Position numbers and translations under genes: made by a program. 32,995 bases of DNA from an uncultured Chloroflexota bacterium (GTDB lineage: Bacteria; Chloroflexota; Anaerolineae; Anaerolineales; Villigracilaceae), in assembly GCA_903914955.1 (NCBI GenBank), contig CAIWRB010000202.1, forward strand, positions 1 through 32,995, written 5' to 3'. The first letter of the stretch is position 1. The number at the start of each line of letters is the position of its first letter. Positions 15,041-31,697 of this stretch are shown here, piece after piece. The notes beneath the pieces are model-generated. The model saw only the letters and a list, made by a program, of their open reading frames with translations, made no database searches and was not told where the DNA came from.

Positions 15041-15565
15041 ATGCGTTTACAAAATAAAAAAATCGCGATATTGATCGCCGAAGGCGTGGAAGATTATGAA
15101 TATATTGTCCCCACCATGCGGCTGCAGGAAGAAGGCGCACAGGTGCTCTCCGCAGGTCTTGACTTAAAACCCATAAAAGGAAAAAACGGTTTAACGATCG
15201 TGCCCGACACTTTGATCGACTCACTTAATGCGGAAGACCTTTTTGCGCTCATCATTCCAGGAGGCTGGGCGCCGGATAAATTACGAAGATATGCCGTGGT
15301 AAAAAATATCGTCAACCAGATGGACGTGGCAAATAAAATCATTGGCATAATTTGTCACGGCGGTTCCATCGCGATCTCGGCGGGGGTCATCAAAAAAGGT
15401 CAACGCGCCACGGGTTCACTTGGCATCAAAGATGATCTCGTGAACGCGGGCGCGGTTTGGGTTGACGAACCTGCTTTTCGAAGCGGCAATCAGGTTTGGG
15501 GGCGGGTGGTTGCGGATATTCCAGATTTCAATCGCGAGTTGGTGAAGGCTTTAGTCGAGGGATAA
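15041..15565 (+). CDS. DJ-1/PfpI family protein
   Basis: 174 residues. The fold opens KIAILIAEGVEDYEYIVPTM, with the conserved glutamate in GVED, then IIPGGWAPDKLR. The nucleophile elbow IICHGG places a reactive Cys at 105 followed by His. Members are proteases, glyoxalases, or protein and nucleotide deglycases. AGGAG lies before the ATG. The end converges on and overlaps the alkaline phosphatase-like gene by 15 bases, with no room for a terminator. Confidence 0.9.
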   Translation: MRLQNKKIAILIAEGVEDYEYIVPTMRLQEEGAQVLSAGLDLKPIKGKNGLTIVPDTLIDSLNAEDLFALIIPGGWAPDKLRRYAVVKNIVNQMDVANKIIGIICHGGSIAISAGVIKKGQRATGSLGIKDDLVNAGAVWVDEPAFRSGNQVWGRVVADIPDFNRELVKALVEG

Positions 15566-16366
15566 TGGCTTTTGCCCCATCGTTTCCGGGATTGGCACAT
15601 CCAATAATTTTAGGATGGTGGGTGCGATCTGCAAATGCGAGATGATCTCGCCGGTATCGCCTCTACCTTTAACTTTTGGCTGGAAACAGAACAACGGAAC
15701 TTCCCTTTGCTCGGGGGTAGTACCGCCATGCGCTCCATCCTTGTTGATGCCATGATCGCCTGTGACGAAGATGGAGTAATCGTGTTCCATCCATTCCTGA
15801 ATTAAAGGCGCCAGCCACATATCTTGATGAATGGCATGGTTGCGATATTCCTTTGAATCAGAGCCATAAGTTTCGCCGTGATAATCCATACCCATGGGAT
15901 GAAGCAAAAGATAATCAGGGGAAAATTTTCGGATGAGGTGCGCGGCAGTTACAAAGAGTTCAATATCAGGATAATCATCCTCGGTGTAAAAACGGCCGTG
16001 CTGAATGGATAAAGATCCGTCATCGGTTTCTTTATCGTCAATACGGTCATACGGCGCGCGGTTGTATAACTCTGAGACCCAATAGTACGCAGCGGCCGCT
16101 GTAACTTTTTTGGCTTCTGCAACTGAGCGGAAAATATTCGGCATGCTCGAACGACGAACAACGGAATTGGCAACGATCCCATGCACACTTGATGGAACAC
16201 CTGTATGAATGGTCTCATACATTGGGCGGGACATGCTCGGCAGTTCGCCAACAATTTTAAAAAGTGTCGCAAGTTTTGATTCCACCAGATGGCCAAGAAA
16301 TCCCATGTTGGCCACAGCAACATCATAGCGCAACGCGTCAGACAAAATAAGGATAACTTTACTCAT
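15551..16366 (-). CDS. Alkaline phosphatase superfamily hydrolase (NPP/phosphonoacetate hydrolase-like)
   Basis: 271 residues with the two-metal site of the superfamily. Asp10 is in ILSDALR, a Ser44/Ser46 nucleophile is in LPSMSRPMYETIHTG, and Asp161/His163 are in MGMDYHGE. Asp204/His205 are in VTGDHG, and His213 is in GAHGG. No signal peptide is visible, so it is probably cytoplasmic. It should hydrolyse a phosphate ester, phosphodiester or phosphonate. It lies just downstream of the ABC importer terminator at 16381-16420, and GAGGTGAG precedes its ATG. Its expression is therefore either readthrough or separate, and the neighbourhood hints at an imported organophosphorus compound. Confidence 0.8.
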   Translation of the reverse strand: MSKVILILSDALRYDVAVANMGFLGHLVESKLATLFKIVGELPSMSRPMYETIHTGVPSSVHGIVANSVVRRSSMPNIFRSVAEAKKVTAAAAYYWVSELYNRAPYDRIDDKETDDGSLSIQHGRFYTEDDYPDIELFVTAAHLIRKFSPDYLLLHPMGMDYHGETYGSDSKEYRNHAIHQDMWLAPLIQEWMEHDYSIFVTGDHGINKDGAHGGTTPEQREVPLFCFQPKVKGRGDTGEIISHLQIAPTILKLLDVPIPETMGQKPLSLD

Positions 16367-16380
16367 AACTCACCTCAAAT

Positions 16381-16420
16381 AAAAATGGTTCAGAGTGTTA
16401 ATTACTCTGAACCATTTTTT
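16381..16420. terminator. Bidirectional Rho-independent terminator
   Basis: AAAAATGGTTCAGAGT (16381-16396) and ACTCTGAACCATTTTT (16404-16419) form a perfect 16-pair stem with a seven-base loop. A/T runs flank it on both strands. It ends the ABC transporter operon 16 bases after its last gene. It leaves the hydrolase gene at 15551 dependent on readthrough or its own weak promoter. Confidence 0.9.
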
Positions 16421-16435
16421 ATAACAAATCAATTT

Positions 16436-17497
16436 TCATTCATCCAGCACAAGCACGGCTTCACGCGAACAGGTAACCTGTTCTATTGCACCGATCTTTG
16501 GAAGTTCAAGGAATGGATTATTGAATGTGTCCATGTTGAATTTGGTATTGCCGATCTTCAATTGAATACGAACGACTGAACCCAAAAACGTAATGTTCTC
16601 TATGGTGGAATCAACGACATTGGCTTTCTTTTGTTCCGAGGCAAAACCAAAACGTTCAGGGCGAATGGCGATTTTTATTTTATCACCTTTCTTTCTGTCT
16701 TTTGTGCCTTCGGCTGATTCAAAATGGATGCCGTCCATGCTCAACAATCCTTTGACAGGGTCAACCACTTCGGCGTCTGCAGTATTCAAGGAGCCGACAA
16801 AATTCGCCACAAAACGAGTATTGGGAAAGTTGTATACTTCGAATGGAGTGCCAACTTGTTCAATCCTGCCTTCATACATGACAACAATGCGGTCTGAAAT
16901 AGACAAAGCTTCTTCCTGATCGTGCGTCACGAAGATTGCAGTTATGCCCATTTTCTTTTGGATGGCACGAATTTCAGAGCGAAGTTGGACGCGGATCTTC
17001 GCATCCAACGCAGAGAGCGGCTCATCGAGCAGAAGCACCTGAGGACGATTCGCCAAGGCACGCGCCAAAGCCACGCGCTGTTGCTGTCCGCCCGAAAGTT
17101 GGAAGGGGTATTTATTGGCATGTTTTTCAAGATTGATCAAAGCCAACATTTCATTCACGCGTTCTTTGATGGCTCCTTTGGATTCCTTGTGAATCTGCAT
17201 GCCAAAGCCGATGTTTTGCGCAACGGTCATATTGGGGAAGAGCGCATAAGCCTGAAAGATCATGCCCACGTTACGCTGGTTCGGAGCGATATTCGTAATA
17301 TCCTGGCCGTTAATGGTGATCGTGCCGCTGGTTGGCTTTTCAAATCCTGCAACCATGCGCAAAGTGGTTGTCTTGCCGCATCCCGACGGTCCAAGGAAAG
17401 AAACGAATTCACCCTGTTCCACATCAAGATTGAAATCCTGAACCACAGTGGTTCCACCATATTCTTTGGATATATTCGTAAGTTTAAGATGTGTCAT
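16436..17497 (-). CDS. ABC importer ATPase, iron/polyamine/aminoethylphosphonate-type
   Basis: 353 residues from the ATG at 17497. The longer GTG frame to 17557 runs back into the permease and is rejected, and GAGG lies 11 bases upstream of the ATG. Walker A is GPSGCGKTTTLRM, the signature is LSGGQQQRVALARAL, Walker B is LLLDEPLSALDAK, and the switch His is VTHDQEEA. The C-terminal 110 residues form a TOBE-like domain, including IAIRPERFGF. This is the PotA/FbpC/PhnT subfamily that pairs with two permeases and a binding protein. The gene is followed by the terminator at 16381-16420. Confidence 0.92.
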   Translation of the reverse strand: MTHLKLTNISKEYGGTTVVQDFNLDVEQGEFVSFLGPSGCGKTTTLRMVAGFEKPTSGTITINGQDITNIAPNQRNVGMIFQAYALFPNMTVAQNIGFGMQIHKESKGAIKERVNEMLALINLEKHANKYPFQLSGGQQQRVALARALANRPQVLLLDEPLSALDAKIRVQLRSEIRAIQKKMGITAIFVTHDQEEALSISDRIVVMYEGRIEQVGTPFEVYNFPNTRFVANFVGSLNTADAEVVDPVKGLLSMDGIHFESAEGTKDRKKGDKIKIAIRPERFGFASEQKKANVVDSTIENITFLGSVVRIQLKIGNTKFNMDTFNNPFLELPKIGAIEQVTCSREAVLVLDE

Positions 17498-17519
17498 ATC
17501 AATATTATCCTCGGTTGCA

Positions 17520-18302
17520 TTAATGTCCACCGGCGATTTGTGCCTGCTGGCTACCACGACCTACCAACTGGATAATCCCCAAACATCCCCAAGTAAGAGC
17601 AAAACTGATGACCGCCAGGGCCGCCGGCTCATATGCTTTTTGTTGGATCAGATATGCCATATAAGGCGCGAAGGCAGGCTTGGCAAGGTACTGGGCTAAA
17701 ATATACTCGCCCATCACAATGGCAAAGCTCAGGAAAGCGCCATTCAGGATGGCAACGCGTATGTTGGGCAGGATGATACGAAAAAGGATTGTCTCCCAAC
17801 CCGCACCTAAACTCTGGGCAGCTTCTGTCAAGGTCTGCACATCAATGGCTCGCAAACCTGTATCAATCGAGCGATACATATAGGGCATTGATAGAACGGT
17901 GTATGCAGCAATCAACAAAGCCGGGCTATTTACGATCAGAAACGGCGGATGGCTGAAAGTTCTCACCAAGCCAAAGACAAATACAATTCCGGGAATTACG
18001 AAGGGGAGCAGAGTGACAAACTCGACCGCGGTTCGAAACTGCGGCACCCTCAGTCGGACCCAGTATGCGGTAGGAACGAAAATCAAGATTCCCACAACAA
18101 TGGTGAAAATCGCCCAAACCAACGAATACGAGAAGTTCGTCACAAAATCGGTGGTAACAAATAGGTTCTGATAGGCTTTGAAACTTAGTACTCCTTTGAT
18201 CGCACGCAGCGAAAACAGAAAGGTCGCCAACAGCGGCAAAAAGAAGTATAGGATGCCGAGTATCATCCAAAACCAGGACCAAACTAGGCCGCCTCGCTTC
18301 AT
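17520..18302 (-). CDS. ABC importer permease 2
   Basis: About 260 residues from the ATG at 18302, which overlaps the stop of permease 1 as ATGA. Six hydrophobic segments and the cytoplasmic coupling loop EAAQSLGAGWETILFRI are seen. This is the second member of a PotB/PotC, PhnU/PhnV-like permease pair. Together with permease 1 it forms the channel that the ATPase at 16436-17497 drives. Confidence 0.9.
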   Translation of the reverse strand: MKRGGLVWSWFWMILGILYFFLPLLATFLFSLRAIKGVLSFKAYQNLFVTTDFVTNFSYSLVWAIFTIVVGILIFVPTAYWVRLRVPQFRTAVEFVTLLPFVIPGIVFVFGLVRTFSHPPFLIVNSPALLIAAYTVLSMPYMYRSIDTGLRAIDVQTLTEAAQSLGAGWETILFRIILPNIRVAILNGAFLSFAIVMGEYILAQYLAKPAFAPYMAYLIQQKAYEPAALAVISFALTWGCLGIIQLVGRGSQQAQIAGGH

Positions 18303-19201
18303 CGCAACCACCTTTCAGTTTGTCTCTGAAGTAACGTATATCCAGTAATTGCTATCACCATCACTACGACCATCCCAGACGCCAGGGCGTAGCCTAACCC
18401 GGCATCACCTAGAACATCGCCTCGCAACTGGGAACCAATTACGATGGTCACAAGATTAATCGCCCCCCCCGTAAGTGCCTGTGCGGTTGCGAATGCACCA
18501 AAGGAGTTTCCAAAGAGCAAGATCATGGTGCCCAATATAGCGGGTAAGAGTATCGGAAAAGCCACATAGCGCCAGTACTGAAAACTGGACGCTCCAAGGT
18601 TTTCAGCGGCTTCTAGCCATTCCTTCCGCAAGCCGTCAATTGCCGGTGCAATGACCAATACCATCAAGGGGAATTGAAAGTACATGTATACAATGCTTAG
18701 GCCCCAGAAATTGTAGAGTTGGAAGCCGTGGAAATACGGGTTATACCCCATTGCTTTCAACCAACCCGTCAATACTCCCGATGGACTAAGCAAGGTAATG
18801 AAAGCAAAAGCCAGCGGTACCCCGGCAAAGTTTGATGCAACCCCGCAAAAAGTCATGAGGCTGGAACGCATGAAGCGAGGTAATCCACCTCGGATAGCCG
18901 AGTAAGCTAGCAAGAATCCAAAGATGCCACCACCTATAGAGGTAATCAGGCTGATCTTAATACTGATCCAATAGGAAGCGATCAGGGATGGACTTTGCAA
19001 TAGATGGGCAAAGTTTTGGAATGTGAAGGTGTGCGTTTTTGTGTCTTGAAAACTTCCCAAAGCGATGGTTGAGGAGGGATAAATCAAGAACATAAACGCA
19101 AACAGAAAAAAGGGCAATACGCCGAGCCATGCCCAGGAAAACTTGGAAAGAGCGGGACGCGCTTTAGGCGCGTCCCGCTTTACAACATCAAAAGTAGCCA
19201 T
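18299..19201 (-). CDS. ABC importer permease 1
   Basis: About 300 residues from the ATG at 19201. The longer frame to 19255 runs into the binding protein gene and is rejected, and TAAGG precedes the ATG. The N-terminus is polar (MATFDVVKRDAPKARP), followed by six membrane segments. The coupling loop EWLEAAENLGASSFQYW contains the EAA motif. It lies four bases after the binding protein gene, consistent with one transcript. Confidence 0.9.
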   Translation of the reverse strand: MATFDVVKRDAPKARPALSKFSWAWLGVLPFFLFAFMFLIYPSSTIALGSFQDTKTHTFTFQNFAHLLQSPSLIASYWISIKISLITSIGGGIFGFLLAYSAIRGGLPRFMRSSLMTFCGVASNFAGVPLAFAFITLLSPSGVLTGWLKAMGYNPYFHGFQLYNFWGLSIVYMYFQFPLMVLVIAPAIDGLRKEWLEAAENLGASSFQYWRYVAFPILLPAILGTMILLFGNSFGAFATAQALTGGAINLVTIVIGSQLRGDVLGDAGLGYALASGMVVVMVIAITGYTLLQRQTERWLR

Positions 19202-19205
19202 GACC

Positions 19206-20498
19206 TTACGGTGTAGCAGTTGGGATCGAAACGCCAACGGTCGACATCCAACCACCGGTAATCAATGTTTTTGCAGCAGTCAGTTGATCGACAGTAGGAG
19301 CAACCGCGGCAGCCAAAACTGCAGGATCTGGCAACATCTTTAATACATCCGCAGGAATTACACCGCGTGTTTGCATATCTGCCTGGGAAACGGCAGAAGC
19401 TCCGCCTTTAATCCAAGCCAATTGTCCTTCATCAGAGTTAATGACTTCCATCCAAACTTTAGCACAATTGAGATGGGGCGCATAAGCGCTAATGGCCTGA
19501 ATATATGCACCACCGATGCTAGGAGACGGATAATCGATCTCGATCTCTGGGTTCCCAGCGAGAGATTGCTGATCACTCAAGGCATTGTAATTCCAAGCCA
19601 ATACAATAGGAGTTGCCCCCTGAGCAAGGGTTCCTACCTTGGCAGTCACTGGAACAAAATTGCCTGCATCATTCAACTTCTTGAAGTAATCAAGACCTGG
19701 CTGGGCGTTATCCAAAGAACCACCATTGGCTAATCCGGCAGCGTAAACAGCCATAATCGCCTGATTGGAGGCTTGTGGATCGCCTGTTAAAGCAACCTGA
19801 CCCTTGTATTCGGGCTTAAGCAAGTCAGACCAGTTCTTCGGCGGATTCTGGACAACGGCGGTATTGGTCTCGATCACCATGATGCCAAAGTAACCGATCG
19901 ACCACATTCCATTCGGATCAGCTGTGGGGATACCCAGGGTAGTCGCAGGAAGCTTGCTGGAATACGTACCTTTATAGGCCTGGTAGGCACCGGCAGCAAT
20001 GCCTTGCGCGCCATAAGCATATCCAACATCAACGATATCAGGAGCCTGTGGTCCGGTGTTACCTTTGTTGGCTTCGATAGCAGCGAGTTCATCAGCAGAC
20101 CCTGCATTGGGGTCCAACGAGTTAAGCTCGACACCCGATCCGACAGTGGCTTGGAAGTCGGCGAAAATCTCACCATAATTTGCCCAGTTGGGCGGCGTGG
20201 CAATGATCGTCAACATGCCTTCTTTTTGGCAGGCAGCAACTAGATCAGCTGGCACACTTGAAACCACTGTGCCGTTGTAGCCTTGAGCTACGCCCGTACC
20301 AGCAAATACAGCGGGAGCTACTACAACAGGGGCTTCGGTAGCGACTACGGGGGCTTCGGTAACCACCGCGGCAGGCGCTTCAGTCGCGGCACCTTCTGAT
20401 GATTCTTTTGCTGGAGATTCAGCGCCACCACATGCGGACAAAACAGTTGCCGCGATTACGAACAGAGCGAACAATTGAAAAGCAAATTTTTTATTCAT
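19206..20498 (-). CDS. Solute-binding lipoprotein of the ABC importer
   Basis: 430 residues with a lipoprotein signal: basic start, hydrophobic core and lipobox TVLSAC with Cys23 as the lipidation site. Residues 25-65 are an Ala/Pro/Thr/Glu linker with TEAP units (TEAPAAVV, TEAPVVATEAPVV). A type II periplasmic-binding fold follows, including GMLTIIATPPNWANYGEIF and NWSDLLKPEYKGQVALTGDP. The fold resembles iron, polyamine and aminoethylphosphonate binding proteins; the ligand cannot be told. AGGAGTAAGGAAGAG precedes the ATG. It is the first gene of the importer operon and has its own promoter at 20598-20626. Confidence 0.9.
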   Translation of the reverse strand: MNKKFAFQLFALFVIAATVLSACGGAESPAKESSEGAATEAPAAVVTEAPVVATEAPVVVAPAVFAGTGVAQGYNGTVVSSVPADLVAACQKEGMLTIIATPPNWANYGEIFADFQATVGSGVELNSLDPNAGSADELAAIEANKGNTGPQAPDIVDVGYAYGAQGIAAGAYQAYKGTYSSKLPATTLGIPTADPNGMWSIGYFGIMVIETNTAVVQNPPKNWSDLLKPEYKGQVALTGDPQASNQAIMAVYAAGLANGGSLDNAQPGLDYFKKLNDAGNFVPVTAKVGTLAQGATPIVLAWNYNALSDQQSLAGNPEIEIDYPSPSIGGAYIQAISAYAPHLNCAKVWMEVINSDEGQLAWIKGGASAVSQADMQTRGVIPADVLKMLPDPAVLAAAVAPTVDQLTAAKTLITGGWMSTVGVSIPTATP

Positions 20499-20521
20499 AT
20501 CTCTTCCTTACTCCTATTTGA

Positions 20522-20557
20522 TTATTGTTGATTGGACGAACAGAACAAACCAAACAT
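20522..20557 (-). CDS. Possible 11-residue leader peptide
   Basis: In the leader of the importer operon an ATG at 20557, preceded by GGAGG at a long spacing of 12 bases, opens a short frame ending in TAA at 20522. The peptide would be MFGLFCSSNQQ. It could affect translation of the binding protein gene 24 bases on, or be chance. No terminator-antiterminator structure was seen. Confidence 0.2.
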   Translation of the reverse strand: MFGLFCSSNQQ

Positions 20558-20597
20558 TTTTCTTGCACACCTCCAATCTTATTAATAAGGCTTTTTG

Positions 20598-20626
20598 ATT
20601 GTAGCATTATCAATATTCAAAGTCAA
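20598..20626 (-). promoter_or_regulatory. Promoter of the ABC importer operon
   Basis: On the minus strand TTGACT (20626-20621), a 17-base spacer and TACAAT (20603-20598) match sigma70-type boxes at 5/6 each. The start site would be near 20591, giving a leader of about 90 bases. That leader holds a CTTATTAATAAG palindrome and the small frame at 20522-20557. Confidence 0.75.
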
Positions 20627-20678
20627 ATAGCTCGACCTTAAATATATTGATACTGGTGAATTTTTCCACAGAGCTTGG

Positions 20679-21662
20679 CTATTTCATAGTCGTAATCAAC
20701 CAATATATGCCTGCAGAAAATAAAGCGCTAACCGGGATCGTCACAAGCCAGGCTGTCAGAATATCACCTGCAACACTCCAGCGGACTTTACCCAAGCGTT
20801 CAGACGAACCGACACCGATGATCGCAGAACTAACTACCTGAGTGGTGCTGACAGGAAGTCCGATGAATGACGCTGTCAAAATTACAACTGCTGAAGTCAT
20901 CTGCGTGGCAAAACTATGCACAGGACGGATCTTATAAAATTTGCCGCCAAGTGTGCGGATCAATCTCCAGCCGCCAAGCGCTGTCCCCAACGCCATGGTC
21001 GAAGCGCTGGCGAGGATCACCCAGAAAGGGATTGTGAAATTGGTCAACTGCCCGCTGATGATCAGACTCAAAGTAATGATGCCCATTGTCTTTTGCGCAT
21101 CGTTCGTGCCATGACTAAAAGCCAATCCCACAGCTGTAAAGAATTGTCCGTTCTTGAAAAGATCATTAACGCGCGGGGTTGCATTTCGCGCCAGGAAAAA
21201 TATGACCCGCATAACAATAAATCCCACAACAAACCCAATGACAGGCGAAGCGAATAAAGCGATCAACACTCTATCCAGGCCTTGAAATTTGATGGCGCCC
21301 AGCCCCACTGAGACGAAGACCGCGCCCATCAGCCCGCCGATCAATGCGTGTGAGGAACTGCTGGGAATTCCAAAAAACCAGGTGATCAAATTCCAAATAA
21401 CGGCGCCCATCAAACAGGCGATCAGCGCATCAAGTGTCAGGATACGCGAGTCAACGATATCACTTCCAATGGTTTTGGCTACGGTCACGCCAAATAAAAA
21501 GGGACCAAAAAATTCAGCGATGGCTGTCAATCCAAGTGCGGTTTGTGGACGAAATGCCCGCGATGAGATCATGGTCGCAACGATATTGCTCGAGTCACGC
21601 ATCCCATTAAGGAATTCAAAGATCAGCGCCAGAATAATAACAAATATGAGTTGGCTGGACAT
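20679..21662 (-). CDS. PiT-family inorganic phosphate permease
   Basis: About 327 residues from the ATG at 21662; GTG six bases before it is an alternative, and AGGTG lies upstream. The protein is strongly hydrophobic and carries the duplicated PiT signatures FEFLNGMRDSSNIVATMISS and AFSHGTNDAQKTMG. The family moves phosphate, usually as metal phosphate, by ion coupling. It lies 10 bases after the DUF47 gene, a standard pairing in which the DUF47 protein modulates the permease. Confidence 0.9.
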   Translation of the reverse strand: MSSQLIFVIILALIFEFLNGMRDSSNIVATMISSRAFRPQTALGLTAIAEFFGPFLFGVTVAKTIGSDIVDSRILTLDALIACLMGAVIWNLITWFFGIPSSSSHALIGGLMGAVFVSVGLGAIKFQGLDRVLIALFASPVIGFVVGFIVMRVIFFLARNATPRVNDLFKNGQFFTAVGLAFSHGTNDAQKTMGIITLSLIISGQLTNFTIPFWVILASASTMALGTALGGWRLIRTLGGKFYKIRPVHSFATQMTSAVVILTASFIGLPVSTTQVVSSAIIGVGSSERLGKVRWSVAGDILTAWLVTIPVSALFSAGIYWLITTMK

Positions 21663-21672
21663 GAACACCTGG

Positions 21673-22293
21673 TTAAGTTTTCTTTACAACGATATCAGCA
21701 ATGGTGTTCGCGGCTTCATCCCCGCGATCTGCCGCGTTGGATAGATGACGATACACTTCGCGCATTTTCAACATTTCGACAACGTGATGAATATCTTCAG
21801 GGCCGCTGAACAGATCCGCGACCGCTTCGCGATAAACAGCTTCCACGCGATTCTCGAGAGCCTTGGCGCGCTGCGCGTGATCGGTAGCGACGTTTGGATG
21901 AGTTGGAAGGCGTTGAACCGCGTGCCAGATCTCGTAGGCGGCATCCTTCAGCAAATTCGCCATCCGCAACATATAAGGCGTCGATTTCACTTTAAGGATC
22001 ACCATTTCCATGACGGTCGTATCCGCATAATCTACAATATCATCGATCGAGCGGGATAAGGAAAATATATCCTCGCGGTCAAATGGCGTGACAAATGTGT
22101 TATTCAATTCGTCGATCAAGATGCGGCGTACTTCATCCGCTTCTTTTTCTTTCATAGACAACTCTTCAGCAACTTCTGAATCAAGGGTTTCCAAATATTT
22201 AACCAATAACCTTAATGCTTCATAGGTAATGGAGGCCTGCTGTTCGATCAACTTTTGAAATACGTCTTCCTTGCGTTTAAAAAACCTTAACAT
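21673..22293 (-). CDS. DUF47 (PhoU-like) regulator of phosphate transport
   Basis: 206 mostly helical residues with the DUF47/PhoU-like pattern: AEELSMKEKEADEVRRILIDEL, then TPFDREDIFSLSRSIDDIVDY and the C-terminal EVYRHLSNAADRGDEAANTIADIV. The D/E-rich helices bind metal in the family. It is paired with the PiT gene. GGAG precedes the ATG. The gap 22294-22375 holds a perfect CAGGAATTCCTG palindrome (22352-22363) but no clear promoter. Confidence 0.9.
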   Translation of the reverse strand: MLRFFKRKEDVFQKLIEQQASITYEALRLLVKYLETLDSEVAEELSMKEKEADEVRRILIDELNNTFVTPFDREDIFSLSRSIDDIVDYADTTVMEMVILKVKSTPYMLRMANLLKDAAYEIWHAVQRLPTHPNVATDHAQRAKALENRVEAVYREAVADLFSGPEDIHHVVEMLKMREVYRHLSNAADRGDEAANTIADIVVKKT

Positions 22294-24976: not shown

Positions 24977-27406
24977 TTACGCACGGGACCTCTCGCCTTT
25001 GGGGTCAAATAACACAGAAGCGGTCACTTCCGCTTCGCGCCGTCCCTCTATCAGGTCAACACTGAATCGATTTCCTTTTTGAGCCAATTCCGTTGGCAGA
25101 TATGCATACAGAATATTCTTCCTGATCGTGAATCCATATCCGCCGCTGCGGACGCGGGTCAACACTTTGCCTTCGTGATAGATCGCTTCACCGCCATAAA
25201 TTTGAGTGAACTCATCGCCATCGACAAGAATGAACGTGCAGAGTTTGCGTTGAACACCTTCCGCTTTTTGTTTGATCAACGCAGCGCGTCCGATAAAATC
25301 ACCTTTATCGAGATGGACGCAGAAACCGAGGCCGCCTTCGAAGGGAGTTTCTAACGGAGTGAGGTCGGTCGTGAAATAGCGGAATCCTTTTTCTAGGCGC
25401 AGCGAATCTAAAACTTTGTAACCGCCGACTTCGATACCGAATTCCTTGCCGAATTCCATCAACTTATCCCATAGCATGGTGGCGCGTTCGTTGGGAATGT
25501 AAAGCTCCCAGCCAAGTTCGCCCGCGTAGCTGACGCGCTGCGCGTACACTTTCGCGCCATTGACATGGATCAATTTGGTTTGCAGGTATGGATGCGCCGC
25601 ATTGGAGACATCATCGTTTGATATTTTTTCCAAAACCTTGCGGGCATTCGGTCCCCACAAAGCGAGACAGGCATACTCCTGCGTGATATCACGAATAGAC
25701 ACTTCGCCGTCTTTTTCATCCACGTGCATTTGGAGGCGTGCGAGATCATTGGCGATAAAGCCAGAACCCGTGATGACCCAGAAATAATCCTCGCCCAAAC
25801 GGGTGACGGTTAAATCAGATTCGATACCGCCGCGTGAATTCAGGAATTGTGTATAGACCGCGCTGCCAACCGGTTTATTGATATCGCTATCGGTCAGCCG
25901 CTGTAGCAGAGGCAATGCGCCTTTTCCCTTTACTTCTATTTTTCCAAAAGAAGTCAGATCAAAAAGCGTGACTCTTTCACGAGTGGCTTTATGCTCTTCG
26001 CCCATACGCTCAAAGAACGGAGGCTTGCTCCATCCCCATTGACGTTGATCTTCACCCATGCGCCGCGAAGGTTTTCCTGGTTGGAAATAATTGACACGCT
26101 CCCAGCCGAATTTTTCACCGAAGACCGCGCCATGTTCCAGCAAACGATAATGCACGGGACTGACTCGATGAGGCCGTGCTAATTCATGTTCATCATGCGG
26201 AAAGCGCAAGCGATAATAATATTTCACGCTTTCTTTCGTGCGTTCCGCCGCGTAGACAGGGTCGGAATAATAATTTCCAAAACGTGTGGCACGATAGGCG
26301 TACACGTCCATCGGCGCTTCACCGTCGATGATCCACTCGGCGATCAACTTGCCCATGCCGCCAGCGCCGCCATATCCATTTAACGACATGCCTGCCGCCA
26401 TCCAGAATCCGCGCACGCCTGCCATCGGTCCAAGCATGGGCTGGCAGTCAGGTGTATATGCGCCAGGGTGGCAAACCAGCGTGATAATTCCCGCCTTGTC
26501 CAAGAATGGCAGGCGTTTGATCGCTCCTTCAAGCAGCATTTCAAATTGATCAAAATTAGACGGCAGCGATGAGCCGCCATGTTCCCATGGCACGCCATCG
26601 ATCCAGCGCGCGATCGGGGTCGGCTCATAACCGCCGATAACAAGTCCGCCCTGCTCCTGGCGCATGTAAACCAAATTGTCAGGGTCGCGCAAACATGGTG
26701 TTTCCTGTGTGAACTCGTGACCAGGCACAGCTTTCAATGCAATGTGTTGATGATCTACGGGTGTCGTCGGGACGTTGATTCCCACCATCGCGGCGATGCG
26801 CGGCGCCCATAGCCCTGCCGCGTTGATGACGATCTCGCATCGGATCGCGCCTTTATCTGTTAATACGCGCTGAACTTCTCCCTTTGCTGAAAGTTCGATG
26901 CCCGTCACGCGCGTGTTGGTATAGATCTCCACGCCGAGTTCCTTTGCAAAACGCGCCATTGATGTTGTTGTTGTATATGGGTCGAGTTGTCCGTCACGCG
27001 GAAGATAAATGCCGCCATATAGATCTTTTTGAGAAATCTGCGGCATGACCTTGAGCGCTTCATTCGGCGAGATCACATCCACTTCGAGTCCCAAAGCCTT
27101 TGCGCGGCTGACGCTTCGTTCCAGCTCTTTGAGCTGCTCCTTGCTCGAAGCGACTCTCAAACTGCCGACATGGTCAAACAAACCGAGCTCCGAATACAAC
27201 TCAATACTATACATGCGGAATTTCAACATGGCTTGTGATGTGGCGAACTGCGTCACAAGTCCTGCCGCGTGCGATGACTCTCCGCTGGCTATTTCACCCT
27301 TTTCCAAAATCACAACATCCTTACGGCCAAACTTCGCAAGATGATATGCGATATTGGCTCCAAAAATCCCGCCGCCTATGATGACAATTTGTGCTTGATC
27401 TTTCAT
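24977..27406 (-). CDS. Dimethylglycine/sarcosine dehydrogenase-like FAD oxidoreductase with GcvT domain (copy 1)
   Basis: 809 residues. The N-terminal DAO domain has IVIIGGGIFGANIAYHLAKFG, then GESSHAAGLVTQF with His46 where the family binds FAD covalently. A central FAD-linked cap follows. The C-terminal GcvT-type aminomethyltransferase region includes VTLFDLTSFGKIEVKGKGAL, SYAGELGWELYIPNERATML and GFRYFTTDLTPLETPFEGGL. Relatives oxidise N-methyl groups of dimethylglycine or sarcosine and hand the one-carbon unit to tetrahydrofolate. AAAGGTG precedes the ATG. It lies 20 bases after the DeoR gene, in the same operon. The substrate is not fixed by sequence. Confidence 0.85.
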   Translation of the reverse strand: MKDQAQIVIIGGGIFGANIAYHLAKFGRKDVVILEKGEIASGESSHAAGLVTQFATSQAMLKFRMYSIELYSELGLFDHVGSLRVASSKEQLKELERSVSRAKALGLEVDVISPNEALKVMPQISQKDLYGGIYLPRDGQLDPYTTTTSMARFAKELGVEIYTNTRVTGIELSAKGEVQRVLTDKGAIRCEIVINAAGLWAPRIAAMVGINVPTTPVDHQHIALKAVPGHEFTQETPCLRDPDNLVYMRQEQGGLVIGGYEPTPIARWIDGVPWEHGGSSLPSNFDQFEMLLEGAIKRLPFLDKAGIITLVCHPGAYTPDCQPMLGPMAGVRGFWMAAGMSLNGYGGAGGMGKLIAEWIIDGEAPMDVYAYRATRFGNYYSDPVYAAERTKESVKYYYRLRFPHDEHELARPHRVSPVHYRLLEHGAVFGEKFGWERVNYFQPGKPSRRMGEDQRQWGWSKPPFFERMGEEHKATRERVTLFDLTSFGKIEVKGKGALPLLQRLTDSDINKPVGSAVYTQFLNSRGGIESDLTVTRLGEDYFWVITGSGFIANDLARLQMHVDEKDGEVSIRDITQEYACLALWGPNARKVLEKISNDDVSNAAHPYLQTKLIHVNGAKVYAQRVSYAGELGWELYIPNERATMLWDKLMEFGKEFGIEVGGYKVLDSLRLEKGFRYFTTDLTPLETPFEGGLGFCVHLDKGDFIGRAALIKQKAEGVQRKLCTFILVDGDEFTQIYGGEAIYHEGKVLTRVRSGGYGFTIRKNILYAYLPTELAQKGNRFSVDLIEGRREAEVTASVLFDPKGERSRA

Positions 27407-27426: not shown

Positions 27427-28221
27427 TTAAATACTTATGTTCATATTATTTGCTATTAGTGTCTCAATGGATTTTTCTTTTAGGTCTTCGATTGCTTCCA
27501 TGCTAAAACCTTCATCGGTAACGAACTTGTCGATCTCGTCAATATCCGCCACCGGGAAGTTGGATACCGCACCCCATTTGCTATGATCCGCCACAATGAT
27601 TACCTGCCCTTTGGTACGATCGATCATGCGGCGCACCACTTCCGCCTCGGCATTCGTCGGTACGGTGCAGCCATGTTTTAATGAGATTCCATCAACCCCA
27701 AGGATCACCTTGTTGGCAAAGACCAGATTCAAATTGTCCAGCGCGAAGCGGCCTGCCAAAGAGTTGGAACGTGGCTGGAACTCGCCCCCGGTCAAATAGT
27801 AGTGAAAGCCGGGGTCGCCGATTTCCATCGCCGCATTAACATTATTCGTAAATATCGTAATTCGAAAATCACGTTTGATGTGTTGAAGTACTTGTGTGGC
27901 GGTTGTACCGCTATTGATAAAAACAATATCGCCTTCTTCGATAAGCGAAGCGGCGAGCTGGCCGATGAGTTTTTTTTCTTCAGGATAATGCTGCGCGCGC
28001 TGTTGATATTCCTGCTCAAAGATCACGCGCTGACTTAAGATCGCCCCGCCGTGTGTGCGTTCCAAGATCCCCTTTTGCTCCAGCCACTCAAGGTCACGCC
28101 GCACCGTTGCTTCAGAAGTTTCCAACAAATTACACAGATCAACCGTGCGGGTGATTTGGTGAATTGCCAGATATTCCTGAATTCGCTCTCTTCGTTGTGC
28201 GGGTATGAGGGGTTTTCCCAT
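27427..28221 (-). CDS. DeoR-family transcriptional regulator, probably leaderless
   Basis: 264 residues from the ATG at 28221. An in-frame TTG at 28257 overlaps the -35 box and is rejected. The helix-turn-helix is RTVDLCNLLETSEATVRRDL near residue 25, followed by LEQKGILERTHGGA. The DeoRC effector domain includes INSGTTATQVLQHI, ILGVDGIS and GQVIIVADHSKWG. In studied members this domain binds phosphorylated sugars. No Shine-Dalgarno sequence precedes the ATG, and the TATAAT box ends seven bases before it, so the mRNA probably starts at or next to the A of the ATG. It likely controls both arms of the divergent locus. Confidence 0.9.
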   Translation of the reverse strand: MGKPLIPAQRRERIQEYLAIHQITRTVDLCNLLETSEATVRRDLEWLEQKGILERTHGGAILSQRVIFEQEYQQRAQHYPEEKKLIGQLAASLIEEGDIVFINSGTTATQVLQHIKRDFRITIFTNNVNAAMEIGDPGFHYYLTGGEFQPRSNSLAGRFALDNLNLVFANKVILGVDGISLKHGCTVPTNAEAEVVRRMIDRTKGQVIIVADHSKWGAVSNFPVADIDEIDKFVTDEGFSMEAIEDLKEKSIETLIANNMNISI

Positions 28222-28228
28222 TAGGAGG

Positions 28229-28257
28229 ATTATATAAGAATTTGAAGGAATTTGCAA
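28229..28257 (-). promoter_or_regulatory. Leftward promoter of the DeoR-led operon
   Basis: On the minus strand TTGCAA (28257-28252), a 17-base spacer and a perfect TATAAT (28234-28229). Transcription should begin about seven bases on, at or beside the ATG at 28221. It shares its -35 with the rightward promoter. Confidence 0.8.
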
Positions 28258-28280
28258 GTTTTTGATTTTTTCATTATAAT
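28252..28280 (+). promoter_or_regulatory. Rightward promoter of the CBS-led operon
   Basis: TTGCAA (28252-28257), a 17-base spacer and a perfect TATAAT (28275-28280). The start site would be near 28287, giving a leader of about 95 bases before the ATG at 28383. Confidence 0.8.
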
Positions 28281-28299
28281 CCGTTCAATTCCTTTCACA

Positions 28300-28357
28300 A
28301 GAAAACCCTAAAGGTTCTCTTGATAATAACAAACCTGCCTGTTACAGGCAAATTTGT
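28300..28357 (+). promoter_or_regulatory. Two imperfect dyads in the CBS operon leader
   Basis: An imperfect repeat spans 28300-28320 (AGAAAACC / GGTTCTCT around CTAAA). A second spans 28329-28357: ACAAA, three unpaired bases, GCCTG, loop TTA, CAGGC, three unpaired bases, TTTGT. They lie downstream of the rightward promoter and upstream of the ribosome binding site, so they are candidate operator or RNA hairpin sites for the neighbouring DeoR regulator. The role is inferred. Confidence 0.4.
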
Positions 28358-28382
28358 AGGGGTTGTTTTTATTGGAGTCTCC

Positions 28383-29195
28383 ATGACCAAACTCGTCAAA
28401 GATCTGATGCACCCAGGCGTGATCACTTGCAAACCCAAAGCCGCCTTGGGGCAAGTAGCCGTGCTGCTCAACCAGCACAAAGTACACGCGCTATTCGTCA
28501 CCGACCGCGATGGACGCATCATTGGGGTCATTTCGGATTTCGATCTGCTGGCCGGCGAATGGCTTTCATCAGACTCTGAAAGTTTAACAGCCATGCGGAA
28601 TTTAACAGCCGCAGATCTGATGACCCAGCCGGTTGATTCTATAGAAGCAAACATTCCCCTCTCTCAAGCAGTAGATCAATTCATGGAAAAAAGGATCAGT
28701 CGTTTTCTGGTGACAGATAACGGAAAACCTGTCGGCATTATTTCGCTCTCTGATTTTGTTGCCAGCATAGCTAGTGAAATTAAAACAAAACGTGATACCG
28801 TCGGCGACGTGATGTCTGACGCCATTTTGGTTTGCCGCGGAAAAACTCCGGTGGCATCCGCTGCGCGCGCGATGACCTCCTCAGGCTGGCGTTCTGTTTT
28901 AGTTGTGGATGCAAAAGGGAAGATCCTCGGCGTGGTCAGCGGGCACGACCTGCTGCGCTTCGTCAATGAAGATGCGCGCAAAAAATTGATCGTACGTGAT
29001 GTAATGCACCCCGCGTTAACAATTGACATCCACGCCAGTCTGCGCGAAGCAGCAGACTTAATGATACAGAATCATCATCACAGACTCGTGGTGATCGACA
29101 AAGACGACCCTGACGCATTCCCGCTCGGCGTAATCTCCACTTTTGATATTGTCGCCGAAATGGCGCGCCCTGATTCGGTTTGGCAAAAAAATTAA
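28383..29195 (+). CDS. Four-CBS-domain protein
   Basis: 270 residues from the ATG at 28383, six bases after GGAG. The longer frame from 28320 includes the leader hairpin and is rejected. Four CBS motifs are seen in series: KDLMHPGVITCKPKAALGQV, ADLMTQPVDSIEANIPLSQA, GDVMSDAILVCRGKTPVASA and RDVMHPALTIDIHASLREAA. Each ends in a typical turn such as GVISDFDLL. Two such pairs make two Bateman modules that bind adenine nucleotides or SAM. With no attached catalytic domain it is probably a sensor, and its place at the head of the operon suggests it tracks energy or methyl-donor status. Confidence 0.88.
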   Translation: MTKLVKDLMHPGVITCKPKAALGQVAVLLNQHKVHALFVTDRDGRIIGVISDFDLLAGEWLSSDSESLTAMRNLTAADLMTQPVDSIEANIPLSQAVDQFMEKRISRFLVTDNGKPVGIISLSDFVASIASEIKTKRDTVGDVMSDAILVCRGKTPVASAARAMTSSGWRSVLVVDAKGKILGVVSGHDLLRFVNEDARKKLIVRDVMHPALTIDIHASLREAADLMIQNHHHRLVVIDKDDPDAFPLGVISTFDIVAEMARPDSVWQKN

Positions 29196-29264: not shown

Positions 29265-31697
29265 ATGTCAGAATTCCCAACACAGGCACAAGTAGTGATC
29301 ATCGGCGGCGGCGTAGGCGGGGCGAGCATTGCTTATCATCTCACGCTCATGGGATGGAAAGATGTCGTCATTCTTGAACGACACGAATTAACAGCAGGAT
29401 CCACATGGCATTCGGCGGGGCTGGTCGGTCAGATGCGTTCGGATGCGAATCTCACACGCATGATGCACTACAGCACCGACCTGTATCGCAAGCTCAAAGC
29501 TGAAACAGGCGTTGATACCTCGTGGCGTGAAGTTGGTGGTCTCCGTCTGGCTTCATCCGCTGAACGCATGGAGGAGAATAAAAGACTGGTCGGCATGGCG
29601 CGCTCATTTGGTGTTCCAATGGAATTGATCTCGGCAAAAGAAGCGCAGAATATGTTCCCGCTCATGTCTATTGAGGGTGTGCTCGGCGCAGCATTCACAC
29701 CCAACGACGGTAGTATTGACCCGACCGGCATGACCAATGCACTGGCTGCTGGCGCAAAGAATCGCGGGGCAAAGATATTCACGAACACAAGCGTTGAAGG
29801 GATAAACCTCAAAGATGGCCGCGTCTGTGAAGTAGTGACTGATAAAGGTGTGATAAAAACTGAAATCGTAGTCAACGCCTCAGGCATGTGGGGACGCGAA
29901 GTAGGCAAGATGGTTGGCTTGAATCTACCTGTCGTGCCGATGGCTCATCTTTACATTATGACCAAGCCGATAGAAGGCGTTACCCACAGCTTCCCCAATT
30001 TACGTGACCCTGACCTTTTGGTTTACTGGCGCGAAGAAGTTGGCGGATTGATCACAGGTGGCTACGAACGTCAGCCCGCGACCTTTGGCATGAACGGTAT
30101 TCCAAAGGATTTCAAATTCCAACTACTCCCGCCAGATTGGGAACGCTTCACCCCTTTGATGGAAAATTCGATCAGGCGCGTGCCAGCTATTGAACATGCT
30201 GAAGTTGTCAAACTATTGAATGGCCCCGAAGGCTTTACCCCCGATGGCGAATTTTTGCTCGGTCCCACAACTGTCAAGGGTTTCTGGGTGGCGTGTGCAT
30301 TCTGTGCACATGGACTCGCCGGCGCGGGCGGCATCGGCAAAGTCATGGCTGAATGGATCATTGATGGAAGTCCCGAATGGGATATGTGGCGCCTGGATGT
30401 TCGCCGCTTTGGCCCGAACTACAATAGCATCAATTACACTGTGGCGCGCACATTCGAAACCTACACGCAGTATTATGACATTCACTTCCCCGGTGAAGAG
30501 CGCCTGTCAAAACGCAACGTCCGCACCTCCCCCACTTATTATCGACTGCGCGACCTCGGTTGTTACTTCGGCGAAAAGATGGGCTGGGAACGCCCGAACT
30601 GGTTTAAGAAATACGAGGAACTCGCCACACATGGGCACGAACCGCGGGGTTGGGCTCGCCAAAATTGGTCACGCGCCATCGGTCACGAACACTTGATGAC
30701 ACGCGAGAATGCGGGTCTCTTCGATGAAACATCCTTCAATAAATTTGAAGTGCGCGGCATTGGCGCTTTAAATTTCCTCAACACAGTCTGCGCGAATGAA
30801 ATAGACCAGCCGGTCGGCACTATCATCTATACGCAAGCACTCAACAAACGCGGCGGAATTGAATGTGACTTCACCGTCACACGCCTTGCGCAAGATCGCT
30901 TCTTCATTGTAACTGGCACAGCGTTCGGCCAGCATGATATGTCGTGGCTCTCACTTAATATGCCCGAAGACGGCACTGTCTCGATCGAAGATGTCGGTTC
31001 GGCGTACGCCTGTATCGGTTTATGGGGACCGAAGGCTCGCAAGATCCTGGAGAAAGTCACTTCGGATGACGTGTCCAATACCGGATTCCCCTATATGACA
31101 AATCGCCGCATCACCATAGGCGACATCCCTGTGCTCGCTTCGCGCGTAACTTATGTTGGCGAGCTCGGCTGGGAATTCTACTGCCCGACGGAGTACGGGC
31201 TGCGGCTGTGGGACACACTCTGGGAAGCAGGCGCACCCGAAGGCATGGTCGCTGGCGGCTACAAGGCCATAGACACTTTGCGCCTTGAAAAGGGTTATCG
31301 TTATTGGAGCGGTGAAATTTCCCCCGATTACACTCCTTATGAAGCAGGCCTCGGTTTTGCAGTGAAGTTGGATAAAGCGAACTTCACTGGTAGGGATGCG
31401 TTAGTAAAACAAAAAGCTGAAGGCATCAAACGCAAGCTTTGCACACTCACACTTGCTGATGACCGCACAATCGTTCTCGGCAAGGAACCGATCCGCGCCG
31501 GCGATATCATTGTCGGCTGGGTGGCTTCAGGCGGATTCGGCTATTCGGTGAACAAGTCCATTGCCTACGCTTATCTTCCAATGGAGTACACGAAGGTTGG
31601 AACAAAATTACAGGTTGAATGTTTCGGGGAACAAGTCGGCGCGGAAGTGGCGCAAGCCGTGTTATGGGACCCGAAGGCTGAGAGAATTCGTCAGTAA
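29265..31697 (+). CDS. Dimethylglycine/sarcosine dehydrogenase-like FAD oxidoreductase with GcvT domain (copy 2)
   Basis: 810 residues, paralogous to the gene at 24977-27406. It starts QAQVVIIGGGVGGASIAYHL, with GSTWHSAG placing His49 at the covalent FAD position. The cap region and GcvT part follow, including FDETSFNKFEVRGIGALNFL, TYVGELGWEFYCPTEYG and FTGRDALVKQKAEGIKRKLC. The N-terminal motif is closer to the consensus GSTWH than in copy 1 (GESSH), which suggests different substrates or steps. It probably passes electrons to an electron-transferring flavoprotein not present here. ACAGGAGTAAAGC precedes the ATG. Confidence 0.87.
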   Translation: MSEFPTQAQVVIIGGGVGGASIAYHLTLMGWKDVVILERHELTAGSTWHSAGLVGQMRSDANLTRMMHYSTDLYRKLKAETGVDTSWREVGGLRLASSAERMEENKRLVGMARSFGVPMELISAKEAQNMFPLMSIEGVLGAAFTPNDGSIDPTGMTNALAAGAKNRGAKIFTNTSVEGINLKDGRVCEVVTDKGVIKTEIVVNASGMWGREVGKMVGLNLPVVPMAHLYIMTKPIEGVTHSFPNLRDPDLLVYWREEVGGLITGGYERQPATFGMNGIPKDFKFQLLPPDWERFTPLMENSIRRVPAIEHAEVVKLLNGPEGFTPDGEFLLGPTTVKGFWVACAFCAHGLAGAGGIGKVMAEWIIDGSPEWDMWRLDVRRFGPNYNSINYTVARTFETYTQYYDIHFPGEERLSKRNVRTSPTYYRLRDLGCYFGEKMGWERPNWFKKYEELATHGHEPRGWARQNWSRAIGHEHLMTRENAGLFDETSFNKFEVRGIGALNFLNTVCANEIDQPVGTIIYTQALNKRGGIECDFTVTRLAQDRFFIVTGTAFGQHDMSWLSLNMPEDGTVSIEDVGSAYACIGLWGPKARKILEKVTSDDVSNTGFPYMTNRRITIGDIPVLASRVTYVGELGWEFYCPTEYGLRLWDTLWEAGAPEGMVAGGYKAIDTLRLEKGYRYWSGEISPDYTPYEAGLGFAVKLDKANFTGRDALVKQKAEGIKRKLCTLTLADDRTIVLGKEPIRAGDIIVGWVASGGFGYSVNKSIAYAYLPMEYTKVGTKLQVECFGEQVGAEVAQAVLWDPKAERIRQ

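Follow-up and report, generated by a model that had tools for sequence, protein, structure and literature searches.

Two divergent operons of an uncultured Chloroflexota bacterium appear to be served by a single 52-bp element, in which one palindromic -35 hexamer is shared by two promoters facing in opposite directions. We studied this element in a window of 32,995 nucleotides (the whole stretch of DNA analyzed; contig C202 of a 4.4-Mb genome in 470 contigs). It probably acts as a compact two-way promoter with an operator centred on the palindromic -35, where the repressor DeoR would close both promoters. By sequence and conservation, the element can be placed among overlapping divergent sigma-70-type promoters, whose core elements overlap on opposite strands. 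Two divergent promoters using one palindromic -35 had been proposed in a first-pass annotation of this DNA, and constraint on three hexamers, exact spacing, leaderless distances and recurrence all argue for that proposal.

The mirror element and the genes on both sides

Read on the plus strand, positions 28229..28280 consist of ATTATA, 17 bases, TTGCAA, 17 bases and TATAAT. The central hexamer (28252..28257, used on both strands) is its own reverse complement, as the first-pass annotation had noted. Perfect TATAAT boxes lie at 28229..28234 on the minus strand, forming the -10 of the predicted deoR operon promoter, and at 28275..28280 on the plus strand, forming that of the CBS operon promoter; these coordinates and letters, and the two 17-base spacers, had also been given correctly.

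The repressor gene deoR (27427..28221, minus strand) starts with an ATG at 28221, and in 70 of 70 loci the corresponding position is also an ATG. Its product carries HTH_DeoR and DeoRC domains (Pfam E 1.3e-15 and 4.5e-41) and hence belongs to the DeoR family; we assign it to no named member because its scores stay under the cut-offs of all NCBIfam equivalogs that it matched. Among 39 named loci with matching proteins, 38 are from Chloroflexota (74-99% identity; many from Anaerolineales, one from Candidatus Villigracilaceae), and one match, at 25%, is from Fusobacteriales. Behind deoR lies a gene for a FAD oxidoreductase/GcvT-like protein (24977..27406, minus strand; Pfam), followed leftward by genes for a PfkB-like kinase and an MttB-like methyltransferase. 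The divergent operon opens with a gene for a protein of four CBS domains (28383..29195, plus strand; Pfam), preceded by GGAG at 28374-28377, and continues with a second FAD oxidoreductase/GcvT-like protein (29265..31697, plus strand; Pfam) and a choline-kinase/GntI-like protein. The FAD oxidoreductase/GcvT proteins of the two operons are 809 and 810 aa long. Judged by Pfam domains, the gene content of both sides points to one pathway, which would act on methylated amines or related compounds. Further left on the minus strand (15551-22293), in the same orientation as the deoR operon, are genes for a phosphodiesterase/sulfatase-like protein, an ABC transporter with an SBP_bac_6 binding protein, a PHO4 phosphate transporter and a DUF47 protein; together these might indicate a substrate of the phosphorylated methylamine type.

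In the window 7 bases lie between the end of the deoR -10 and the ATG of the gene, a point absent from the first-pass annotation. The predicted transcript start (28221..28222, minus strand) would therefore make the deoR mRNA leaderless or nearly so, and by its sequence deoR fits the pattern described for leaderless genes, in which the start codon follows a TATAAT-like box at about 10-12 bp and a leader is lacking. The distance from -10 to ATG is 7 bases in 29 of 70 family copies, 46-54 in 38 and 95-98 in three. Chloroflexi are listed in PMC3160421 among the groups with leaderless genes marked by TAtaaT, and in the genome of the window TANAAT-4-8-ATG occurs 789 times, against 393 for the control, an about twofold enrichment. 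On the plus strand, the predicted CBS transcript start (28287..28288) is 7-8 bases past the -10, and 102 bases separate this -10 from the CBS ATG. At three related loci (L059, L060 and L062) the CBS ATG stands 6 bases past the plus -10, so both mRNAs look leaderless there; at L059 and L062 the start codons of the two genes are just 65 bases apart. The repressor match contains one stop codon in L060 (G096) and in L059 (G105). Two promoters are thus supported by the leaderless distance at deoR and by the CBS ATGs of three relatives.

Just beyond the plus -10, the CBS leaders contain several kinds of short inverted repeat, which looks like the repeated insertion of small palindromic elements. Repeats of the GACCTGACAG...CTGTCAGGTC type occur in the divergent leaders of L007, L008, L014, L016, L017, L031, L056 and L058, those of the CCCGCAGG...CCTGCGGG type in L019, L036, L037 and L055, the window itself carrying a GCCTGTTACAGGC hairpin near 28337-28349.

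A candidate operator on the shared -35

The likely DeoR operator, which we call O1, is a 23-mer, TCAAAAACTTGCAAATTCCTTCA (28243..28265, minus strand), centred on the shared -35. It is a conserved, repeated unit whose pattern is kept across the genus: TCAAA-N4-6-CAAWTTYCNTCA has 60 matches, spread over 47 of the 57 genomes of the genus, compared with 1 for the reversed control. At the deoR locus lie 57 of these 60 matches, and in the genome of the window O1 is the sole one. We rejected DeoR as a wide regulator in the genus on the basis of this near confinement.

A second copy, O2, is present in 37 of the 38 deoR leaders of 46-54 bases, at 42 bp (26 leaders) or 43 bp (11 leaders) from O1, or about four helical turns. 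At the place of the TTG, O1 has TTG throughout and O2 has it in 1 of 38; column 29 is A in O1 throughout and in 26 of 37 O2 copies. O2 serves here as a natural control: since it departs from O1 at -35 letters, more than the operator must be keeping the TTG of the deoR -35 and, in the divergent TTG, the first T. Columns 27-28 are fixed in O2 as well, and part of the -35 conservation may belong to the operator. A weak O3-like copy, CAATTCCTTTCA (28286..28297, plus strand), near the predicted plus start is tentative; between 14 and 19 of 70 divergent leaders reach 9 of 12, against 1.5-1.6 expected.

We propose that TTGCAA receives a single sigma-A-type holoenzyme at any one time, in one orientation or the other, and that the enzyme then opens the -10 found 17 bases ahead of it, producing either the (leaderless) deoR transcript or that of the CBS operon. 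A single binding event of DeoR at O1 would close both promoters, and DeoR would repress itself and both arms of one catabolic regulon until released by an inducer. Where O2 is present, autorepression would be reinforced by this second site four turns away. Since O1 covers the shared -35, bound DeoR should block both promoters, and since the genes of both sides point to one pathway, the simplest scheme would have a metabolite of that pathway derepress both together.

The first-pass annotation had envisaged a different use of the element, namely that the operons compete for polymerase at the shared -35 as an either/or switch which DeoR tips one way. Its premise, that two polymerases cannot occupy the same -35 at once, is sound: exclusion of one polymerase by another is unavoidable from the geometry, and the same is stated for overlapping promoters in PMC12825309 and PMC4207663, the latter describing overlapping divergent promoters and a regulator as a switch. 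However, whether exclusion matters depends on promoter strength according to PMC12825309, which reports that, where native promoters share a -10, weakening the -35 of one direction by mutation barely affected the other and that competition was slight until one direction was strengthened. The operator-like unit on the shared -35 favours joint blocking, and joint control suits the presence of related FAD oxidoreductase/GcvT enzymes in both operons better than an either/or choice. On these grounds we regard a DeoR-biased switch as unlikely and the closing of both promoters together by DeoR as the most likely outcome.

Constraint on both promoters

With spacers of 16-18 bases, the pattern occurs once each in 76 of 152 family genomes and its reversed form in 0. 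All 76 copies lie upstream of the same deoR gene, and 75 have exactly 17/17 spacing (one, in G028, has 16/17). The repressor itself was detected in 82 of the 152 genomes (E up to 1e-50). The six repressor-bearing genomes without the exact pattern comprise two in which the repressor is cut by a contig end (G120 and G142), three that keep TTGCAA and a perfect plus -10 with a weaker deoR -10 (G036, G037 and G040), and one in which the repressor is kept and the element is absent within 113 upstream bases (G004).

An alignment of 70 family copies, 45 of them distinct, shows no variation in CTTGCAA or in the deoR TATAAT; the plus -10 is kept in 69-70 of 70 per column, the exception being L072, whose spacer of 16 bases is one shorter. 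Changes per column were counted by parsimony on a quick tree built from the repressor N-terminus and the CBS protein of the 60 genomes with enough CBS sequence. Each -35 column and each deoR -10 column shows 0 changes, and those of the plus -10 show 0-1, the change arising solely through one 1-bp spacer deletion. The two spacers average 4.3 and 2.9 changes, the 15 columns beyond the plus -10 have 15-29 each and the seven columns beyond the deoR -10 have 10-22 each, although flank counts may be inflated by indels because flanks were compared ungapped. The case for two real promoters rests most firmly on these sharp edges of conservation at both -10s.

The element is kept though the first gene of the divergent operon varies. 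Among 81 loci in the partner table this gene is gene X at 43, CBS at 29, FAD/GcvT at 5 and choline kinase at 3, with none at 1; L007 and L068 carry false negative starts from secondary CBS hits (the actual partner at L068 is a FAD/GcvT frame at +338), and L117-L119 stand outside the table, their choline-kinase partner having been taken from the frame list. At L048 and 42 other loci, gene X separates the CBS gene from the promoter; its product has 262 aa, and the gene is absent from that place in the window. A Pfam search of gene X gave no match; the letters GS...DID in its protein resemble those of a nucleotidyltransferase.

The same data bear on a reading in which the deoR promoter alone is real, the plus TATAAT is unused and the rest of the 52 bp is an operator with an UP-like A-tract. 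Conserved A-tracts (columns 10-14 and 17-21) do lie upstream of the deoR -35, and the CBS gene of the window sits 102 bases past the plus -10. Yet the plus -10 is conserved over exactly six bases next to a flank that changes 15-29 times per column, CBS start codons follow it at 6 bases in three relatives, and G036, G037 and G040 hold it perfect despite their weaker deoR -10. We therefore consider this reading quite improbable.

Still less probable is that the plus-side octamer ATTATAAT (28273-28280) serves both strands as a common -10, in the manner of known bidirectional promoters, with starts about 18 bp apart. The octamer is palindromic, and an additional promoter-like match on the minus strand, TTGTGA-16-TATAAT (28300-28273), which the first-pass annotation does not mention, ends there. 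Nevertheless its minus-strand half varies (columns 7, 8 and 9 change 3, 7 and 15 times) and TTGTGA falls in the unconserved flank; we rejected the octamer in this role, as it is conserved solely in the half that forms the plus -10. Nor do the predicted starts of the two operons, about 65 bp apart, fall within the 7-25 bp of the shared -10 class.

A chance arrangement in this AT-rich intergenic stretch has a negligible probability and was ruled out by reversed-pattern controls, wrong-spacing controls and conservation. At up to 3 mismatches the element is the sole match in the window, and 100 dinucleotide shuffles of the window gave a mean of 0.03 matches (2 of 100 with any match). The exact pattern occurs once in the genome, and up to 3 mismatches yield 5 sites against 1 for the reversed pattern. 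Of 396 class genomes, the right spacing is matched in 26 and the wrong spacing of 20-22 in 0; in a phylum search, exact 17/17 matches were found in 15 of 390 genomes, all 15 in the family of the window. The genome contains a second mirror-like site with one mismatch (L002, G000:C272:12088-12139), between frames that by eye are metallophosphoesterase-like and kinase-like; it was left out as support because the left frame may start within the element. We also ruled out a structured RNA: an Rfam search of 28000-28600 (E up to 1) gave two sub-threshold matches, neither on the mirror element, which lies upstream of both predicted starts.

No palindromic hexamer but TTGCAA starts with TTG, and none comes closer to TTGACA, which it matches at 4 of 6 positions, as do three other palindromes. 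In the genome of the window, TTGACA-16-18-TATAAT occurs 15 times (control 0) and TTGCAA-16-18-TATAAT 4 times (control 1), two of the 4 being the mirror element and one the C272 site with one mismatch. TTGCAA is thus not simply the usual -35 of this genome, an explanation that these counts do not bear out. Nine repressor paralogues (about 40-50% identity, by eye) were inspected: seven have TTGACA 17 bases before the -10, one has TTGTCA and one nothing clear. Unshared TTGCAA does exist, since a second deoR copy in G034 (L116, 56% identity) has TTGCAA-17-TACAAT with no mirror -10 at 17; no divergent neighbour was seen at L116. Further second deoR copies, L120 and L122, have no clean mirror. At the deoR paralogue promoters L101-L106, L108 and L121, an operator-like spacer of the kind ACAAACAAAAACATTCATG stands behind TTGACA (by eye), apparently marking another autoregulated DeoR group.

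Recurrence and relation to known systems

The class search gave 12 matches in 10 genomes outside the family, six of which adjoin the same repressor (in G441, on two contigs of G417, and in G189, G283 and G327). The partner there is gene X in G441 and G417, FAD/GcvT in G189 and G283, and choline kinase in G327. G417:C2 and G327 have a broken or split repressor frame, and the frame of G189 starts some 340 bases off. These recurrences at deoR relatives fall in families f42, f46 and f48, with different spacers. Of five full-length repressors found outside the family at 55% identity or more, four have the element; it is absent in G364, where the orthologue (L100) has another divergent neighbour, no opposite TATAAT, and TTGCAG in place of TTGCAA. 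At L099 (1411-1636) the mirror geometry, with TTGCAA central, is put to an unrelated use, the element lying between diverging genes for tRNA-Arg and tRNA-Pro, 14 and 9 bases from their 5' ends. A tRNA-Pro gene also flanks the element on one side at L095, and L075, L093, L096 and L124 have other or unclear neighbours.

On viral contigs the right spacing was found in at least 120 stretches and the wrong spacing in 52. Among the matches listed, 25 of 66 look-alike groups (a crude grouping) have 17/17 spacing, against 7.3 expected if nine spacer combinations are equally likely (P about 1e-8), and no open frame of at least 100 aa covers 66 of the 96 distinct elements, compared with 15 of 52 at the wrong spacing. 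Mirror promoters with a palindromic -35 TTGCAA, two perfect -10s and 17/17 spacing may thus form a distinct recurrent class that couples two transcription units in cells and viruses, a generalization that we hold to be about as likely as not. In Anaerolineae the operator would be fused with the -35, making one 52-bp element a promoter pair, an operator and an autoregulator together, with start codons down to 65 bases apart.

Such an element uses symmetry at the -35 rather than at the -10, and it is conserved widely enough for a phylogenetic reading. It is a minimal system, one whose -35 cannot be adjusted in favour of a single direction, and one protein could silence both operons together if the operator lies on the shared box. 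Polymerase orientation choice, the coupling of divergent operons and the fusion of operator and promoter become testable with 52 bp of DNA, and the search at right versus wrong spacing can be applied to any genome set with mapped starts.

In the open-licence literature, as far as its accessible text extends, we found no description of one palindromic -35 serving two promoters. The nearest described case found is ddrR-umuDAb of Acinetobacter (PMC7273328), a divergent co-regulated pair, as ours would be. There both -35s overlap one inverted repeat in the repressor region, and joint repression by a single binding has been proposed. The -35s of ddrR-umuDAb are adjacent and different (TTGACG and TTGAAT in A. 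baylyi), whereas here one palindromic hexamer is flanked by mirror 17/17 spacers; the UmuDAb repressor also belongs to a family other than DeoR.

Bidirectional promoters with a shared -10, as described by Warman, Grainger and co-workers (PMC12825309, PMC10268837), resemble the element in their symmetry and in having two mutually exclusive polymerase orientations. Their starts are 7-25 bp apart, 18 being commonest, in contrast to the shared -35 and the wider separation of predicted starts here. The Pr/Pc pair of plasmid pLS20 (PMC4207663) combines overlapping divergent promoters, an operator lying on them and an autoregulated regulator gene, as we propose for the present locus. For that pair the authors favour reciprocally coinciding -10 and -35 boxes, with one promoter strong, the other weak, and a loop in the DNA, whereas in our case a single -35 would serve both promoters and neither -10 departs from TATAAT. 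Autoregulated repressors of the DeoR/GlpR/AgaR type offer a further likeness, as the HTH_DeoR and DeoRC protein studied here also appears to have a repeated operator-like unit in its own promoter, but in this locus the unit lies on a -35 that two operons would use. Overlapping divergent promoters were thus already known; what differs here is the identical palindromic -35 with mirror spacing.
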